A stretch of 64,000 bases of DNA from Porphyridium purpureum. Taxonomy: Eukaryota > Rhodophyta > Bangiophyceae > Porphyridiales > Porphyridiaceae. The notes beneath the pieces are model-generated. The model saw only the letters and a program-made list of their open reading frames with translations. It had not been told where the DNA came from and searched no databases. The stretch covers positions 310,001 to 374,000 of the forward strand of contig VRMN01000001.1 in assembly GCA_008690995.1 (NCBI GenBank), given 5' to 3'. Of the stretch, positions 2,725-33,029 are shown one piece after another; position 1 is the stretch's first letter; every line of letters starts with the position of its first letter. A program made the position numbers and the translations under genes.

Positions 2725-3414
2725 CTAAATCAAATGATTGCTGAGAAGAAAGATCAAAAGTAGCACCGCCATGGCTCCGCCGCCGATGGAAGCCAGCTGC
2801 AATGATCGCAGGACGGTGTCTTCGCTCGTGACAGGTTGCTCGTCGTCAACGGGCTCGGTCAGCAGACCTTGGTAGTATCCGAGCGAACCATGCTCGTGCT
2901 TCTTGTTGCCGAACCTGAGCTGGTTCATGTTGACAAATAACAGAAAGACACGGCTCTGGTTTTCAGAGACGGCCGTGCCCACCGCGAGAGAGCCCTCTCG
3001 ATTCACAGTCTGCATCGAGACGGTGCCCATCGACTCTGGCTTCACTTCGGAGCTCGTGTATGCGAGACGCCACCCATTTTCTGGTGTGACAAGAGCATCC
3101 ATTTCCTCACGGCTATCACTGGGCGCCGCCTGGGCTTGCTCGCAAACAACCGCGCACGCCTGTGCCAGCGCCGCGGGCTCAGCCTGTCCCGCGCTTGCTC
3201 CATTTTCAAGCACCTCCCAAGCTCGCAGACGCTTTGCGTCCATGGCATATTTGGCTTCTTCGCGGGTACCTGCATCGGTACGAATCGCCTCTCCCTCCAT
3301 GCGGAGCACCCGCGGTCTCCGCAAGCTCGTGGCCACACGAACATGTCCCGAGCCGCACTGCCGCCCACGTGCGCTCGTAATCGCCCCGACTATCGGCGTG
3401 ACAAAGGCCGTCAT
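2725..3414 (-). CDS. Plastid-lipid-associated (fibrillin/PAP)-like protein with C-terminal membrane anchor
   Basis: From the ATG at 3414 the protein has 229 residues; in-frame ATGs at 3456 and 3462 would add 14-16. The N-terminus (MTAFVTPIVGAITSARGR...) is rich in Ser, Ala and Arg and poor in acidic residues, like a plastid transit peptide. The middle has helices, then the block NGWRLAYTSSE, which resembles the W-x-L-x-Y-T-S motif of fibrillins. A closing hydrophobic segment (about 207-225, GGGAMAVLLLIFLLSNHLI) should anchor it in a membrane. Fibrillins bind lipids and quinones in thylakoids and plastoglobules; the assignment rests on that single motif plus topology. It is divergent from the ABC ATPase gene with only about 130 bp between start codons, so the promoter is shared. 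Confidence 0.5.
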   Translation of the reverse strand: MTAFVTPIVGAITSARGRQCGSGHVRVATSLRRPRVLRMEGEAIRTDAGTREEAKYAMDAKRLRAWEVLENGASAGQAEPAALAQACAVVCEQAQAAPSDSREEMDALVTPENGWRLAYTSSEVKPESMGTVSMQTVNREGSLAVGTAVSENQSRVFLLFVNMNQLRFGNKKHEHGSLGYYQGLLTEPVDDEQPVTSEDTVLRSLQLASIGGGAMAVLLLIFLLSNHLI

Positions 3415-3540
3415 GGTGAATCCTAGCTCTGTGGATTCGAAACCTCTCTCGCACATTCCCATGGGAGCTCAACGTCCAACGAATACCTCGCTCACCTTGG
3501 CATACGTTGGAAGCAATGGACAAGGAGCTCAGGAGGAATC

Positions 3541-4317
3541 ATGAGCGACGCGTATTATCTGGAGGTCAGCGAGCTGACCAAGGTTCTTCCGGATGGCCGC
3601 ATCCTGCTGGATCATGTAAGTTTTCGCTTCCCTGAGCAGGACGCGCGCCATCAGGAGGGCGAAGGCGCGCACCCGAAGATTCTGTTCGTAACCGGTCCGT
3701 CAGGAACGGGCAAGTCGACGTTGCTGCGGTCAATTGCGGCGTTGGACGCGACTGCAAAGGGTCACCTGCGGTTGAGCAGGGACGCAGCGAGTCAGGCGTC
3801 TACCGAGACGTCGTCGTTGCTCGAAGTGTATCTCGACGAGAGAAAGACCCACGTCAATGTTGGTTCTGGCACCACCGGCTGGCGCAGTGAGGTGCTGTAC
3901 ATGCCCCAGTCGCGCATTGACGTGACAGGCTCGCCACTAGACTTATTCGAAACCGTCAAGACGTTCCGCGCGCAGGAGAATCGCGTACATGCCATGAAGG
4001 ACCCCGTAGAGATCAGCGAGCAGCTGGGACTAAATGAAGAGTTGATGCGGACACCATGGAAGAGATTGAGCGGAGGCGAGGCGCAGCGTGCCGCCTTGGC
4101 GTTGGGGTTGGCTACAGCTCCGTCGGTGCTGCTGCTGGATGAGCCCACGGCTTCGCTCGACCCGGTCGCTGCCAAATGGGTCGAACACTGCGTGCGCAGC
4201 TCGTCGGTCAAACTAGTGGTGTGGGTGTCTCACGACCCGGCGCAGCGGGAGCGCGTCGGGGGTATGGAACTGGATCTGCACAAGCTGCAGCAGCAAGGAC
4301 AACAACAGGACACATGA
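3541..4317 (+). CDS. ABC transporter ATP-binding protein (soluble NBD)
   Basis: A 258-residue stand-alone nucleotide-binding domain. Walker A is GPSGTGKST (about 52-60), the Q-loop is YMPQSR (about 120), the signature is LSGGEAQR (about 176-183), Walker B is LLLDEPTASLD (about 197-207) and the H-loop is SHDP (about 230). It has no membrane domain, so it must pair with a separate permease, not seen here. The compact layout resembles bacterial YbbL/FetA and plant STAR1-type NBDs; that subgroup is an inference. A glutamine-rich tail (QQQGQQQD) follows. All catalytic motifs are intact. The 3' end lies 59 bp from the 3' end of the converging WD40 gene. The promoter is shared with the fibrillin-like gene. 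Confidence 0.85.
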   Translation: MSDAYYLEVSELTKVLPDGRILLDHVSFRFPEQDARHQEGEGAHPKILFVTGPSGTGKSTLLRSIAALDATAKGHLRLSRDAASQASTETSSLLEVYLDERKTHVNVGSGTTGWRSEVLYMPQSRIDVTGSPLDLFETVKTFRAQENRVHAMKDPVEISEQLGLNEELMRTPWKRLSGGEAQRAALALGLATAPSVLLLDEPTASLDPVAAKWVEHCVRSSSVKLVVWVSHDPAQRERVGGMELDLHKLQQQGQQQDT

Positions 4318-4376: not shown

Positions 4377-5369
4377 TCACGCGAGCTCGCCACAGGGAAA
4401 TCCCAGACGGGCCCTCACATCCACCTGGTACTCAAAAATATGCGCGTCAGATCCAACATACAGATGCCGCGCATCCGGCGAAAAGCCAAAGCCCGAAATG
4501 TTGGTTTCGCGGGCGCTGCCTGTGAGGCTGATCGTTTGCTGCGCGGAAAAATCGCCGCGCGTATCAACAATGTTCATGTGGCGCACGTGCTCTGAGAATG
4601 CGAGGAGGTCGAGCTCACCAAAAGGCGCCCACTTGACGCATCGGCATGCGCCCTGCTTACTGTACAATGTCGCGAGCGGTCTCCACGTCCTCACATCAAA
4701 CACCATGACGCAACCCTCTTGCGACGCAATGGCAAGCTTGTCGCTGTTCGCGCTCCAGCTGATTTTCATGCCCGAATCCGAAAAGTAGGGCAAGTTGGTC
4801 ACGAGCTTGTACTCGCCCGCCGCGGACACCGCATACACGTCCGCACTGAAGGAGTCGCCCGTGACGCACAACCACCGTCCGTCCGGCGACACGCAGGCGT
4901 TGTTGACGGGTGTGCCCGCCTGGATGGTCTCGACGAGTCGAAGGGTGTTTTCACGCAGCGCGTACACTTTGATGGTCTCATCATTGTTCGCGACGAGCAG
5001 CCGCGTTTCGCCGCCGTGCGTGGATATGTGCACCGCATTGTTCACGAGGCCGCCCACGTTTTCATTGAACAGCACGGCACCCGTACTCACGTCCGTGACT
5101 TTCAGCTCGGAGCACTGCCCGCCCGCGGCGAGAACCGTGCCGTCAATTGCCATGCACGTGGGCAAGAAGGAGTAATTCTCCACCACGGCGCTGCTTCGAT
5201 TCGGCGCTCTTGGCGTCAAGCGCCGCACCGTCGAGTCCTGTACAAAGTAAACATGGCCCGTGTTGGGGCTGACAGTGAGCAAATCCCTCAGCTGCCAATG
5301 CTGTATCGAGGAGCGCTGCGCATACAAGCGCGGCGCGTCCTCATTCACCACCACGCGGCTGCCACCCAT
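4377..5369 (-). CDS. WD40 beta-propeller protein, DUF2415-like
   Basis: A 330-residue protein, from the ATG at 5369 (an in-frame ATG at 5411 would add 14 residues). It consists of propeller blades with the recurrent patterns V-x-D-V-S-T-G, I-K-V-Y-A-L, SPDGRWL, MVFDVRTWRPLATL and FSPDARHLYVGSD. The segment near 245-275 (KWAPFGELDLLAFSEHVRHMNIVDTR) resembles the DUF2415 block found at the end of some fungal and plant WD40 proteins. It should be a cytosolic or nuclear protein-binding scaffold; no catalytic residues are expected. The frame stays open on the same strand beyond 5411, but that part overlaps the divergent GCLC gene and its repetitive leader, so I exclude it. Confidence 0.75.
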   Translation of the reverse strand: MGGSRVVVNEDAPRLYAQRSSIQHWQLRDLLTVSPNTGHVYFVQDSTVRRLTPRAPNRSSAVVENYSFLPTCMAIDGTVLAAGGQCSELKVTDVSTGAVLFNENVGGLVNNAVHISTHGGETRLLVANNDETIKVYALRENTLRLVETIQAGTPVNNACVSPDGRWLCVTGDSFSADVYAVSAAGEYKLVTNLPYFSDSGMKISWSANSDKLAIASQEGCVMVFDVRTWRPLATLYSKQGACRCVKWAPFGELDLLAFSEHVRHMNIVDTRGDFSAQQTISLTGSARETNISGFGFSPDARHLYVGSDAHIFEYQVDVRARLGFPCGELA

Positions 5370-5707
5370 ATGCGCACCTCCGCCCGCTCTGCCCACATTA
5401 CTGCGCGTCATCCCTGCCACGCCAACCGCCACCGCTCGTGCACGAAGCCACCACTGCCACGCCAACGCACACCGGACACAGTCTTCACGGAGCAGCCGTC
5501 TGTCTGCCAACCACCTCCGGCCGGCGCTCCTCACATACTCCTCCCTCTCTCCACGCACGCGCTGCCTGTCTGTCGAGTTTCCCCTCCGCACTCGCGCGAC
5601 ACACACACACACACACGCGCGCGCCTCGCCGTCCTCCACGCCGCTTCCAGATTCAAAACCACTGTACACATAGTACAGCTGGCATAAATGTAAATTACGC
5701 GCATCGC

Positions 5708-5758
5708 GTACAGTGTGTACAGTGTGTACAGTGTGTACAGTGTGTACAGTTTGTACAG
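5708..5758. repeat. 9-bp minisatellite, GTACAGTGT x 6
   Basis: Six tandem copies of the nonamer GTACAGTGT; the last two are slightly altered. It sits in the divergent promoter between the WD40 and GCLC genes. Each copy contains the palindromic core GTAC. Confidence 0.9.
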
Positions 5759-5850
5759 TGATCGCGCGCAACGGAGCGTGCGGGTGGCGCGGGGGGAGAA
5801 AGAGCCGCGAGGGAGAAAGTGCTTGTAGGTGCGCGAGGGGTGAGGGGAGA

Positions 5851-5877
5851 GGGTGGGTGGGTGGGTGGGTGGGTGGG
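5851..5877 (+). repeat. GGGT tandem repeat, G-quadruplex-capable leader
   Basis: Six to seven GGGT units in a row, on the sense strand of GCLC, ending about 33 bases before the chosen start codon at 5910. Four or more closely spaced GGG runs can fold into a G-quadruplex in DNA or in the mRNA leader. Confidence 0.8.
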
Positions 5878-26689: not shown

Positions 26690-27257
26690 CAAGTGTGCTA
26701 TCAGTCTGTGTCTTTTATTTTGAGGATTTGCAGTATATAAGGCACATTTTTACCTATATAAGGCGAAATGTACCGCTATACGGCGAACATGTACCGATGT
26801 AAGGCGAAGAATATTATATTCGTACATGGTCGCCGTATATCAATACCTTGTTTCCGTACAGTATGTCCATGTACCGATATAAGGCGAGTCTCACATATAT
26901 ACGGCTTATAGTACACATATACTTCTTTATGGACATATACAATACGACGACTTGCAAGATGTAAACCACTACGTATCTATTTAAGGCAGCACGTACAATG
27001 TACTCATACAATGTACATGTGTAACTCCTTATACAAACATATAATGCATGCTACATAATGAACCCATGTATTGTACATATATACACTTCGGCGTACGTAT
27101 GTAGGATAGTACGCTACAAGATTTACGTCGCGATGAACACATAAAAGGTGGTGCAGATAGAATGTACTGATATAATGTACACAGATATACCATCATGTAC
27201 GTATAAAATACGCGACCCATAATGCACCCGTGCAATGTACGTATATAAACTGCGGTG
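26690..27257. repeat. AT-rich tract of degenerate GTAC/TATAAGGCG quasi-repeats
   Basis: A low-complexity, AT-rich stretch without coding potential. Variants of ATGTACCGATATAAGGCGA occur at about 26750, 26767, 26788 and 26869, with inverted forms near 26827 and 26913. A separate 43-bp unit occurs twice as an imperfect direct repeat (27054-27096 and 27218-27260), 164 bp apart; the second copy is cut by the left end of Tc1 copy B. It could be a decayed satellite or a remnant of a non-autonomous element. Confidence 0.6.
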
Positions 27258-27259
27258 TA

Positions 27260-28804
27260 CAGTCCTGGCCAAGATGTTTGCAAAACCTGCATTTTGGTCC
27301 AAAAAATTGGATCTTATAGTAAAACAGCCCGTTCTAATAGAACATTTATTTTTAACTCTTTTTTTAACATTGTCAACATCGAGCATGACGGTGAACCAAG
27401 GCGCGGCGCGCGCGTTTTTGTTTTCCCCAGACCATCAGAAGGTGCTCAAAGGATCTTCGCTCGCTGATCCATCTCCTCGTGCGCAAGTGGAGAGTCTCCA
27501 GATCGAAATTGAGCGCGCAACGGCCGGACAATGGCGCCGTGGCTATCGGAACACGAAAAGGGGCAGATCGACGCCCTTGCGGGCCAGGAACTGTCGGTGC
27601 GAGCCATTGCGAAGGCTCTGAAGCCTCGCCCAGATCGCTCGCGACCGTCCTATGCAACTGTGAGCCATTATCTGGCGTCAAGGGGGCGCCGAATTGTCCG
27701 CAAGAAGCCAGGTCCGAAACGGCTTTTGAGGCGCAAATCGGAACGCCGCATCATTCGCGCCGTATCTGTTGATGCACTGACGTCCGGACAGGTGGTTCAC
27801 GAGCTGCACTTGCAGTGCTCGGCCAGGACAGTGCGTCGGACGCTTCAAGCAGCAGGCTTTCCTCGCTACAGGCGAGTCTCGCGGAAACCTTCGCTGTCGT
27901 CTGACAACATCAGGAAGCGTTTGGCGTTTGCCACCGCATGCATTGCGAAACCAATGGCTTTCTGACATCAAGTGGTCTTTTCAGACGAGAAGATTTGGAG
28001 CTGCGATGGCCCATTCGGCTCCTCGCAGCGATGGGTCGACTGTCGCGTCAAGTCAAGTTCGTACGCCAGGCGCCAGCACTCTGGAGGTGGCAAGGTTCAC
28101 ATGTGGGCCGGTATGTCCCTGCGCGGCCTAACAATGGCCGTCTTCGTCGAGTGTGGCTTGAATGCCGTGAAGTATCAACAAGTCTTGCTGGAAGCCTTGC
28201 TTCCGTTCGGCCTGGAAATGTATGACTTCAATTTCACTTTCCAGCAAGACAATGCCCCGGCACATACGGCCAACTCGACCAAGGCGTGGCTCGACGCACT
28301 CGGCGTCACTGTGCTGCCGTGGCCTGCAAGGTCTCCGGACCTTAACCCAATTGAAAACATTTGGGGTGTCTTGTCGCGCGTGGTTTACCGAAAAGGCCGC
28401 CAGTTCGCACGCGTCGCAGAACTTAAGGCTGCCGTCCTTGCGGCGTGGGCGACCGAGGCCCAAAAGTACGTAGTTCCACTGTTGGAGTCCATGCCTCGCC
28501 GTCTTCAAGCTGTACTAGACGCGCGCGGCCACCACACCAAGTACTAAAGTCTCACCCTTCTTGATCTTCGTGTTTCTTTCTTACGTTCCAAAATTTGCGC
28601 CCCTCGTCAATAACCCCTTTTTGCTGTCTCCATTACCCATGCGCTCTTTCCTTGCCTTTTCCTCCCGGTTGGACGCTCCCCCGTGTTTCTTGGGACGCGC
28701 GATCGATTGGCGTGCTCAAAACATACCCTTGTCTATAAAGATTCTTCACTTTTACACGAATTTCACTTTTTATGAGGGTGTTGCAAACATCTTGGCCAGG
28801 ACTG
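27260..28804 (+). mobile_element. Tc1/mariner transposon (copy B) with terminal inverted repeats
   Basis: A 1545-bp element bounded by perfect 24-bp terminal inverted repeats (27260-27283 and 28781-28804, starting CAGTCCTGGCC) and flanked by TA dinucleotides (27258-27259 and 28805-28806), the diagnostic target duplication of the superfamily. It contains one transposase frame on the plus strand. Confidence 0.95.
27531..28547 (+). pseudogene. Transposase of Tc1 copy B (one nonsense codon)
   Basis: A 338-codon frame in one phase, interrupted only by a TGA at 27963-27965. The first half has paired helix-turn-helix features (LSEHEKGQIDALAGQELSVR, then the GPKR hinge and SARTVRRTLQAAGFPRYRR). The second half has VFSDEKIW (first Asp), QQDNAPAH (second Asp) and DLNPIENIW (Glu), with 34 residues between the last two (DD34E). 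All catalytic acids are intact. With one stop and perfect inverted repeats, it is the best-preserved DNA transposon here. An ATG (27972) follows the stop, but a catalytic half alone would lack DNA binding. Confidence 0.9.
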
Positions 28805-28832
28805 TATTCGGTTTTTATGCAACCCGTACCGC

Positions 28833-28922
28833 AACCCATAGTAAAACATAGTAAAACATAGTAAATAGCTAGAGCCGTTAAACCGGTAGCCCTTCTAGCA
28901 TGAAACCGTTAAGCCGGTAGGA
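28833..28922. promoter_or_regulatory. Repeats upstream of the Crypton gene
   Basis: Three direct copies of CATAGTAAAA-like sequence (28837-28866) are followed by two related blocks containing CCGTTAAACCGGTAG and CCGTTAAGCCGGTAG (28874-28920). They lie about 100-180 bp before the Crypton start codon and resemble AACCGG words in host promoters. A promoter role is inferred. Confidence 0.5.
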
Positions 28923-29014
28923 CAAACGAAACGTTCAAGACGTGAAGCAGCGCACAAGTTCGGGCTGGCGGAGTTTACGGAGCGCGGGAAGCGGGACGAA
29001 GAAAGTTCCTTACG

Positions 29015-30859
29015 ATGCCGAATGAGGACACTCTGAAGCGTTACCGTGCAATTGTGTGCGAGTTTTTGGGAATGGTACGAGGCGAGGCTGTCGATGTCTG
29101 GACGCCGGAAATGATTCAAGGGATCAAACCGGAGCACGTGGTTGACTTTTTTAAAACAAAAGTTTACGGCTCCTGTGCGCCAACGGCAAGTCAGCGGCCA
29201 GGAGGGCGCACGAGCAGCTTGGTATTATACAGAAAGGCGATTTCGCACTGTAAGCCATCACGAAATACGGAGTGGACGTATATTATCGAGACTCCCGCGG
29301 GCGGTGACGTTGTCACTAGGTACTTTGGGAATCCCACTAGGTGCCCAACTGTCAACGATTACATCAAGAAACTGCGTAGACTTGAAATCCGCAAATTGGG
29401 CAAGGAATCAAGTGCGAGAAGACCAATGTCGCGGGCTGAGTACAAGCGAATGATTGAAATTCTCGAGAGAGAGAAAGAGTTTAAGTACTCGGCCATTTGC
29501 AGGCTACAGTTCCATTTGATTGCGCGGCGGGATGATACTTGTCGGGCCTTCAAGTGCAATCTTCTTCAACATGAGCGGTTCAAGTTTGCGCTCACCATGA
29601 AGCTCGCGTGGTCGAAAAACGTTCTAGAAGAGCGAGACTGCCCTCGCCAAATTCTTCTAGCGTCTGAGCAGCATTGTGTGTTTGTAGCACTTGCGCTCTT
29701 TCTGGAGACAAACACAGACAACACGAATGAGTGGCTCTTTGACAGCAGTCCAAAGCTGCTGAAAGACAGGCTCATGAGCCACCTCCAAACCAAAGTTTTC
29801 AGTGGTCTTGTCAAAGTGGGGACGCATTCGGTGCGGAAATTTGCGCTTACACATGCGCGAGAAAACGGGTGCTCCCGGGACGATGCAAAGAGTCGTGGCA
29901 GATGGAAAGTGTCAAGAGACATTTTGAATACATACGAAGATGTGAGTTTGCCGTACCCGGACGCGCGCGTTGCCAGCGCATTGTCGCTTGGTGGTGCAAT
30001 ACGATATCATGTGGATGAGAGCAAAGTGACAGACGACTGAATAATTGCGCACGTGGTGCCAATGACAGCACGTGAATACCCTCGCGGAGTTGCGGTGGAG
30101 TTAGGGAAAGCATTGTTATGGCACTGCTTCGCTACGGACGCAGACTTCGGCGGCGTGTCGATTCGTATCAAGCGCGCGTATGCTGCGAGCAGCGCAAGCT
30201 GCCAACGCCCTGTCAAGCGCATGAAAGCGTGCATTAGTGGACACGAGGGTGTCGTCAATATCGACGATATACCAGAAGACGACGCACCAACAGCTGGCTC
30301 CGCGCGAGACGGCACGAGAAGCCATGACGTGCACGTTCTCGCCTCCGTCAATCGGTTGGAGGGAAGTATAGAGCACAAGATTGTAGGGCTTCAATCGGAG
30401 ATGAGAGCTCAAGCCGCAAAGCTGGAAAGCTCCATGGAGCACCTCAAACAGACTGCAACGCGAGCCTTGCGAATGCCAGTCCGTCGCAGCGTGCACATTA
30501 AATCTGTCGGGACCCCTGGTATACTTGACGGCCAAACGTCACGCGTGGACCCTGAGAGGCCAGCCGCTCTTGCCAAGAATCCCAGGACTATTCACGACTT
30601 ATGGAATGAGTACATGTTCGGATTGGTCGGCAACAAACCAGCGAAGGATTTTACCGCACCCGAAAGAGGGCGCGTCAAATTTAAATACTGAAGGAGAAAC
30701 GTAGTCTGGCAAGAATTCGAAAGACTTGTAAGACAAGGTCATGATTCAACAAGTGCGTGTGACAAAGTTTATGAAGCCTACGGCCGGGCAGCTTCGGTGA
30801 CCGAAATTATCGACAAAATGAAAGCTGCTCGCAAAACCGGAGGACATCATGCGCTGTAG
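29015..30859 (+). pseudogene. Crypton-like tyrosine-recombinase transposase with GCR1_C-like C-terminus (two in-frame TGA codons)
   Basis: A 614-codon frame in a single phase, interrupted only by TGA at 30038-30040 and 30689-30691. The first segment holds a tyrosine-recombinase core: Arg in LIARRDD (about 171), HSVR (271-274), GRW (295-297) and Tyr in NTYEDV (307), the R...HxxR...W...Y order of the family. After the first TGA the frame continues with a conserved-looking block (AREYPRGVAVELGKALLW), a low-complexity part and a coiled coil (about 450-490). The C-terminus (LWNEYMFGLVGNKPAKDF..., then VWQEFERLVRQG) resembles the GCR1_C DNA-binding domain of Crypton proteins. No terminal repeats are expected for Cryptons, so the element ends are undefined. 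The catalytic core ends before the first TGA. Confidence 0.75.
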
Positions 30860-31947
30860 AAAACCAAAGAAGTGACTTGACGATGCTTCGCATAACTCCA
30901 GTGGCTCACGTTGTGCGCATGTGTCGACAAAGTGCTGCTCGGTCTGTCCACAAGGAAGCAATCTGTCAGCGATGATAAGACTGGACGCCGACTTCACAGA
31001 GGAACCCACTTTGCGGTGCGCACACAAAAATCCGTACGCGTATCGTTGACGACCAGCGGCAACTCACTCCGATCAACGGCACGTGACGAAGTGCAACATT
31101 CCACCCGGGCGCTTTGCTGTGACGGCGGCGCCCGCTCGTCTTTCCTCCCATCGACAACTTTTTTCAATTCATGTACAAATTCTATTTCTATTTCCAACAG
31201 TTTGACACGCTTGTGTTCGATGCCAAGTCCTGCGCCGATTTCGTGCACCCTGGAGCACGCCATTCGCGTTCGCAAGGGACGCCGGCACATAGTCGAGAAT
31301 ATTGCATATCAAGGTCATGGCGCCGCGGCTATACGCAATATTTTTACTCGGCTCAAGGAATTCGGAGATCTGGCGCTATTGCTCCGTCGCCACTTCCATA
31401 CTTCGTCTGCTTACCAGCACCATCTGCCGCACCACTGCCGTCTCGCACAAAAGGCGCATATCGCATGGTCCGCTTCTCCTCCATTCATCACCGCTGCTCC
31501 TGTTTCCGCCTTGACTCTGGAAATTATCACCGAGCAATAATTTTCCACATACAGTTCCTCAGAGCCTGTGCCATAGTCAGCCGACCTTCCGCTGAATTGA
31601 GCTCTATGGCGTAGCTCATTGAGTTTTCCTTTAGCGTGAATGAGTTCATGTTAGGTCGCATTTCCCGAAGTGCGCAACCGCACAGCCTGCGCTTACAACG
31701 GACCCGCGAATTAATCAAGATTCTCGAACTCAACCGCGTCCGGCTCCGTCTGCAGCGACTCAAAAAAAGGAGACTGCACACTTTGCGACAGCTGGCTTCG
31801 AAGCCAGCATGCCTAAGCACCGGATCTGCATAGCTGCAACCGCCCCTCTGTGTGGCGGCTGCATTATTGAAGCCCACATTTTCCATTGTAGCCGTCTCGT
31901 GATCAACTCCAGAAAGCACGCTGCGCGCATTCTCAATCTCACTCCGC
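30860..31947. other. Unresolved segment between Crypton and Tc1 copy C
   Basis: About 1.1 kb without a recognised gene. On the minus strand, around 31000-32010, several open frames lie end to end in different phases (for example one with KRVKLLEIEIEFVHELKKVV). This could be a decayed minus-strand coding sequence or chance. I cannot name a family. Confidence 0.25.
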
Positions 31948-31949
31948 AT

Positions 31950-32581
31950 GGAAGTGACCCACTCCCCGAACGCTTTTAGGCGGCTGCGCAAAAAGAAGTT
32001 CAACCTGGACGGACCAGATGGTTTCCACAAGACGCGGCTTGAGCGTTCGGCGGACGTTCAAGACATTTGGACGCGACATTCTGGCACCAGTGGATGCATG
32101 GTTTGGGGTGCAATTTCTGCAAGAGGAAAGATTCTCCTTGATTTTATTGAGGGGACATTTACGGCTGCCAAGTATGTTTCCATGCTTCGAGCGGACAATG
32201 TGCTGGACCGCTGCCGTCAGATAGTCGGCCCGAACATGACTCTTCAGCAGGATAACGCGCCAGTGCACACAAGTCGCCTGGTTAAGAATTTCATGAATGA
32301 CGAGAATGTGGAGCTTCTACTGGCCAGCGTACTCGCCGGACTTCAATATCATCGTGAATCTGTGGGGGATACTAGCGCGCAAGGTTCACGAGGGTGCAAG
32401 GCAGTATCAGACAGTGCTGGAGCTCAAGAATGCCATTTTATTGGCTTGGGAGACTTTGGAGCAGCCTGTACTGGCCAATTCTTACGCGTCTCTGCTGAAA
32501 CGCGTATTCAATTGTGCGTATATTCGAGGCGTATACATGCAAGGAAATCGAGACCAATTCCGATTATCTTTGGCTGAGTAA
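31950..32581 (+). pseudogene. Tc1/mariner transposase remnant, copy C
   Basis: The catalytic half of a transposase closely related to copy A: KKFNLDGPDGF, then MVWGAISARGK, QQDNAPVHTSR (second Asp) and WPAYSPDF. It begins abruptly just after the position of the first catalytic Asp, so that residue and the whole DNA-binding half are missing. One frame change lies near 32300. The glutamate motif reads DFNIIVNLW, where relatives have DLNPxENxW, so the catalytic Glu is Val. It is certainly dead and older than copies A and B. Confidence 0.8.
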
Positions 32582-33029
32582 TGGCCAGAAGTGCGCCATG
32601 TCCCTTGTCCGTTCTGACCTCCTTCACTTTCCTTTTTCACTGGACCCTCAATCCTTTTTAAAGTAAAGCAGATCGTTTTACGAGTAAAACTTGAAAAAAG
32701 GTACTGCGCCCTTTCCGATTTGGTCGCACTTTAAGAGAGCTGTACCCTTGCCTGGCACGATGCTTGTGCCACGCGCAAAGTCAAAAGCTCAACTCAAAGT
32801 TCATTGCAAAAAGAAGCGTTTTCACAGAAAACCATCTTTTGGAAAATCCTGTTTTGACGGGATTTTCGCTTTTGAAAAAGTAGAAAGCGCGTGTTTTGGC
32901 AGGCCTCCATGGAGCCATGAGAGGTTCTATCACGTGTGCAAGCGCACCAGCGCATCTACTCATTTCGGGCATAACATCGTGACCTGGTCCGATGGCCGCA
33001 AGCGGAAGAAATACGGCACCAGGGCTCTC

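Follow-up and report, generated by a model that had tools for sequence, protein, structure and literature searches.

A probable GCR1_C-bearing Crypton, disabled and carrying a golgin gene fragment, in the red alga Porphyridium purpureum

The window examined here, a stretch of 64,000 nucleotides from the red alga Porphyridium purpureum (contig VRMN01000001.1, positions 310,001 to 374,000), is part of contig C43 of the genome that was searched for related copies (22.16 Mb in 46 contigs). On its forward strand, positions 29015 to 30859 hold 614 codons in one phase without a frameshift, which an original prediction, made from the sequence alone, had attributed to a Crypton, one of the rare DNA transposons that are mobilised by a tyrosine recombinase (YR). 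As predicted, the internal stops of this frame are limited to two TGA codons, the final stop being a TAG at 30857, and two internal stops or fewer occurred in none of 2000 base shuffles. The two codons divide the open reading frame (ORF) into three segments, and the element around it has been cut by other transposons (Table 1).

Table 1. Features of the Crypton locus (window positions) and the evidence for each
Feature	Position	Strand	Evidence or remark
Mariner-type element (DDE_3), terminal inverted repeat (TIR) CAGTCCTGGCCAAGATGTTTGCAA, TA on each side	27260..28804		By comparison with C1, lies 9 bp inside the left end of the Crypton
Surviving Crypton copy	28805..31993	+	Matches the C1 element at 28804-28971, 30630-30963 and 31347-31993
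Left-end block with 10-bp repeat CATAGTAAAA; putative recombinase binding region	28805..28890	+	Near-identical to C1 and C38
Segment 1: N-terminal part and tyrosine recombinase core (R171, K201, H271, R274, W297, Y307)	29015..30037	+	Relatives' alignment, fold
GT..AG "intron" implied by FVE85_5181, 117 nt, in phase	29994..30110	+	Skips the first TGA, drops 39 conserved codons
First in-frame TGA	30038..30040	+	Aromatic column in 63 of 69 relatives
Segment 2: post-core residues, long helix (residues 430-486), start of GCR1_C	30041..30688	+	Pfam search, structure model
GCR1_C domain, split by the second TGA	30569..30769	+	29.7 bits, profile positions 3-76, one TGA inside
Second in-frame TGA	30689..30691	+	
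Segment 3: rest of GCR1_C and C terminus, TAG stop	30692..30859	+	
Host golgin gene fragment (codons ~861-1006), reversed, frame broken	31554..31991	-	tblastn, blastn
Fragment of another DDE-type element, replacing the Crypton right end	31991..32597	+	DDE_3, E 1.7e-5, 25.1 bits, below the cut-off of 28.6

The residues of a tyrosine recombinase core are found in the first segment where the prediction had placed them. In an alignment of 69 relatives, with gaps scored as misses, R171 is kept in 65, K201 in 68, H271 in 66, W297 in 63 and Y307 in 65, and the column of R274 holds an arginine in 55 and a lysine in 12. The R-H-R-Y hallmark of Cryptons is present in the window ORF as R171, H271, R274 and Y307. 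The twelve relatives with HxxK instead of HxxR (P0021 to P0025, P0028, P0031, P0032, P0034, P0035, P0038 and P0043) include one that also has an asparagine in place of the histidine, and the ten of them long enough for the tree all fall within one 21-row group, which holds arginine rows too. The fold of the predicted structure (mean predicted local distance difference test score, pLDDT, 76.9; predicted template modelling score, pTM, 0.53) matches Xer, Flp, Cre, lambda Int and Ndc10, and thus nothing placed the core outside the tyrosine recombinases. In the same model, the proposed coiled coil corresponds to a single helix.

The GCR1_C-like block expected at the C terminus was recovered as well. 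Segment 2 alone scored 17.9 bits, below the Pfam cut-off of 23 bits for GCR1_C, and the score rose above it, to between 24.8 and 26.6 bits, when the frame was read across the second TGA. A GCR1_C match at E ≤ 1 was obtained in 12 of the 17 alignment members; the C-terminal segment therefore does not stand without counterparts, as judged by the GCR1_C model and the relatives, with no Repbase Crypton in the comparison.

By DNA search of the genome, one sister copy with recombinase sequence was identified, on the minus strand of C45 (952 of 1237 positions identical), and the relative P0002, used as a genome query, retrieved no further recombinase of the family (three rows, of which the third had E 0.03). 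A search with the left 208 bp of the window copy led further to C1:2110562 and C38:202128, where two elements of about 2.65 kb each, with different flanks, are identical to one another at 2576 of 2661 positions (97%). These elements match the window only in the three stretches listed in Table 1, so they are derivatives from which most of the recombinase gene is missing. In the C1 element, stop-free stretches, not searched against Pfam, do not exceed 111 codons on the plus strand and 173 on the minus strand; a 340-codon stop-free stretch runs, on the minus strand, through the GCR1_C remnant of a recombinase-deleted copy (L027, L028). Older remains of the C1/C38 kind occur on C17 and C27, which we counted as one locus because they are 99.25% identical over 9757 bp (L032, C27:82000-91900; L033, C17:106000-115900), as a result of either segmental duplication or redundant contigs. 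A complete autonomous copy was not found.

Over 1083 aligned bases, eight in-register stops are present in C45, and 10 of the 15 indels between it and the window copy have lengths not divisible by three; these indels and the stops were assigned to C45, since the frame of the window copy is whole. The C45 copy contains two insertions, about 816 and 570 bp long (L009, reverse strand, 3258-4073 and 5291-5860). Over the part aligned with C45, the window copy has one stop and no frameshift, and its decay seems much less advanced than that of its sister; of the two options originally offered, recent decay or tolerated stops, the first is supported relative to C45. The two copies differ more at third codon positions (0.252) than at the other two (0.196 and 0.181; chi-square p 0.019), and their ratio of nonsynonymous to synonymous substitution rates (dN/dS) is 0.41 over 342 codons, both estimates coming from two sequences and having no confidence limits. 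Together with the stops and indels of C45, these values suggest that selection probably continued to act on the window gene during much of the decay of C45.

The match between the C1 and C38 elements starts and ends flush with CAGTG, which forms a 5-bp direct repeat as is known from Cryptons. Neither a long inverted repeat nor, outside CAGTG, a duplication was found on C1 or C38, and the identity of the five bases at independent insertions suggests that the core is fixed and that no target duplication took place. The C45 element starts with CAGTGCA, and its right end aligns with C1 to within 2 bp. Each end of the C1 element also carries ATGCAACC, the two in inverted orientation, from base 22 on the left and from base 16 on the right. 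The left flank of the C38 element (C38:202291-202445) is part of a dispersed repeat, the other copies of which stop some 12 to 17 bp short of the insertion point.

The limits originally given for the ORF stand, and the element exceeds them on both sides. Compared with C1, the left terminal 9 bp are lost or unrecognisable beyond the mariner and about 0.77 kb of the right end is missing; the match to C1 stops at 31993, and the right end was not found elsewhere in the window. The DDE gene to the left of the ORF belongs to the mariner, which has its own TIR and TA duplication and looks like a member of a young family, since the 79 matches listed include 15 other near-full copies (at least 1500 bp) with 94 to 97% identity. 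To the left of the mariner (26740-27250), there are degenerate short repeats built around words such as tgtaccgatataaggcg. The DDE-type fragment on the right also adjoins the C45 copy, in the opposite orientation (453/612). With a mariner inside the left end and the right end gone, the window copy could hardly move by itself, whatever the stops do.

What survives of the left end is closely similar to the derivatives. Of the 78 aligned bases in the first block (columns 1-90), 75 are identical in C1 and 74 in C38; both alignments contain 12 gap columns, 10 of which, for C1, correspond to one repeat unit. Agreement with both drops to 28 of 39 and 31 of 42 in the two stretches that follow. The left 84 bp of C45 are less alike (64/84 against C1). 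This block is probably a recombinase binding region, which the window copy would share with the derivatives that were mobile in recent times.

On these grounds, the window copy is very probably a recently disabled, once autonomous Crypton of about 4 kb, whose sole recognised gene of its own encodes the YR, the helix as a linker, and GCR1_C, a DNA-binding domain. The Crypton-type recombinase of the original prediction agrees with the fold, the family alignment, the GCR1_C domain and the terminal direct repeats on related copies. In such an element, recombinase protomers would bind both ends, and Y307 would cut the DNA at the short CAGTG repeat. Once excised in circular form, the element could insert by recombination at another site that offers a matching short core, CAGTG serving as the crossover, and the recombinase-deleted derivatives may have been moved in trans.

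Several observations weigh against this interpretation. When segment 1 was searched by itself, Pfam gave no match at E 10, and its comparison with PDB sequences returned chance matches only, so that the recombinase assignment rests on the fold and the alignment. The family was placed by GCR1_C, the fold and published descriptions, no named Crypton sequence being compared. The direct-repeat reading is based on two elements of one subfamily, and it is weakened because CAGTG is nearly palindromic and the outer 8 bp of the ends match at 6 of 8 as an inverted repeat; moreover, the right end of C45 reads CAGCA. A search of the genome for empty sites, suggested with the original prediction, found none. 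When the flanks of the mariner were joined, no clear CAGTGCACG appeared, so the left terminus has been lost or has diverged, and a terminal repeat of its own cannot be recognised in the window copy. Finally, the coding difference between the window and C45 (227/1083) is no lower than the upstream difference (26/117), and selection is therefore visible only in the codon positions and in dN/dS.

The element could also belong to a tyrosine-recombinase transposon lineage of its own, in the sense of neither CryptonF nor CryptonS. No named Crypton was recovered, the identity to a Phytophthora protein is 32% over 567 columns, and, in a tree made of the relatives found in this analysis, the branch of the window row is long (1.64) and its placement is not starred. 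However, a YR with a C-terminal GCR1_C and short terminal direct repeats is what the description of CryptonF contains (Kojima and Jurka 2011, PMC3212892), and we regard a separate lineage as unlikely.

The protein of the ORF is annotated at NCBI, under Porphyridium purpureum, as FVE85_5181 (519 aa; P0001), in agreement with the red-alga host. Compared with the window translation, it is without 39 residues around the first TGA and ends at the second. It could be taken for a working host gene, spliced over the first TGA to give a Crypton-domesticated protein like Gcr1 or Ndc10; the protein is present at NCBI, the candidate intron is GT..AG and in phase, and the report on the assembly states that RNA data went into the gene models (PMC6811547). 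However, the 39 codons that the intron would delete are mostly kept in the relatives, 65 of 69 filling at least 30 of the 39 columns, and the spliced product would still end inside GCR1_C. The surrounding element is, furthermore, cut by other transposons, and the catalytic residues are intact, while they are mostly lost in the domesticated cases described by Kojima and Jurka (PMC3212892). A host gene is thus very unlikely, and the "intron" is probably an annotation artefact, the gene predictor's detour around a stop.

Besides its own gene, the disabled Crypton contains a piece of host sequence. A host golgin-like gene on C2 (L019, 2086-5295, plus strand) has an open frame of 1069 codons and encodes a GRIP domain (PF01465, E 1.1e-9, residues 1011-1044). 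The right half of the element is homologous, in reverse, to codons ~695 to 1006 of this gene, just short of the GRIP domain, with 66% identity over 936 bp in C1, 65% over 945 in C38, 66% over 441 in the window, 65% over 200 in C45 and 69% over 380 in C17/C27. The golgin frame is broken in C1, C38 and the window; in the window, the match switches frame and the golgin frame holds stops in mid-fragment. The sequence common to the window and C1 extends past the break of the golgin homology (31347-31553), and the host golgin locus matches none of the outer parts of the element.

At the five loci (window, C45, C1, C38 and C17/C27), the golgin stretch lies in the same place and orientation, and it is best read as one old capture common to all of them. 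If, instead, Cryptons had landed in or beside golgin pseudogenes, fragments without Crypton ends would be in keeping, and there is one at C43:3668k; but in C1 and C38 the stretch sits between both element ends and is common to the two despite their different flanks, and the place and orientation are kept at every locus, which makes such landings highly improbable. The fragment at C43:3668k (L034, 4254-4988) is nearer to the host gene (73-77%) and adjoins a 415-codon stop-free stretch; it may be a separate pseudogene or another capture. It may have been the element itself that made the capture, and not a rearrangement of the host whose product the element later carried. We consider it fairly probable that a red-alga YR-GCR1_C Crypton captured the golgin piece and carried it through several transpositions, including those of recombinase-less derivatives whose movement continued until recently (3% divergence) and presumably relied on a trans-acting recombinase like that of the window.

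That the stops are read through or recoded, giving a full 614-aa recombinase, is barely credible: both are TGA, the frame is open after each and the first falls at a conserved aromatic column, but TGA terminates the host golgin ORF, two stops per 614 codons are also expected from young decay, and nothing supported the tolerated stops once envisaged, recoding signals and elements not having been searched for.

If the Crypton interpretation is true, GCR1_C-bearing Cryptons would be extended to red algae, and the many relatives suggest a lineage that is widespread and uncatalogued. The defined ends, the candidate crossover core and the conserved left-end block give a basis for testing Crypton movement, and, to judge from the golgin fragment, a Crypton of small size can transport pieces of host genes. 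Mobile elements with host gene pieces are known from Pack-type capture by plant transposons and from the fungal Starships; the former uses other enzymes, and the latter are far larger than the Crypton described here. The kind of element is already known, while its host phylum and its golgin passenger were not found in print, in a literature search outside which Repbase lay. In particular, the host table of Kojima and Jurka (PMC3212892) has no red alga, and a 2026 plant review lists Cryptons as not described in plants (PMC13317346).

In the description of Kojima and Jurka (PMC3212892), CryptonF comprises elements of fungi and oomycetes with a YR and GCR1_C, and mostly with 6-bp direct repeats (most fungal and five oomycete elements). 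The element of P. purpureum resembles them in the tyrosine recombinase followed by GCR1_C, the short terminal direct repeats and the few copies, and differs in the red-alga host, the golgin passenger and the repeat of 5 bp; since 6 bp holds for most members and not for all, the repeat is no exclusive bar to CryptonF. CryptonS, described from oomycetes and a diatom, has 5- or 6-bp repeats, mostly TATGG termini and no GCR1_C (PMC3212892). The terminal repeats and a conserved C-terminal region are shared with it, and the only relative under a species name other than that of the alga is from the oomycete Phytophthora nicotianae; in contrast, GCR1_C was detected here and the terminus is CAGTG. Since the comparison was made with descriptions rather than with Repbase proteins, the choice between CryptonF and CryptonS is left open, and we have not filed the element as CryptonF. 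Non-autonomous Cryptons have been reported from an insect and medaka (PMC3212892), and the derivatives on C1 and C38 are like CryptonI-1N1_RPro and CryptonA-1N1_OL in being Crypton-derived and no longer encoding a recombinase, the insect one keeping both ends; those two, however, belong to animal groups that have no C-terminal domain and for which terminal repeats were not found (PMC3212892). Lastly, the Crypton-derived yeast proteins Ndc10/Cbf2 and Gcr1 have not preserved the catalytic site (PMC3212892), which is intact in the recombinase of P. purpureum.
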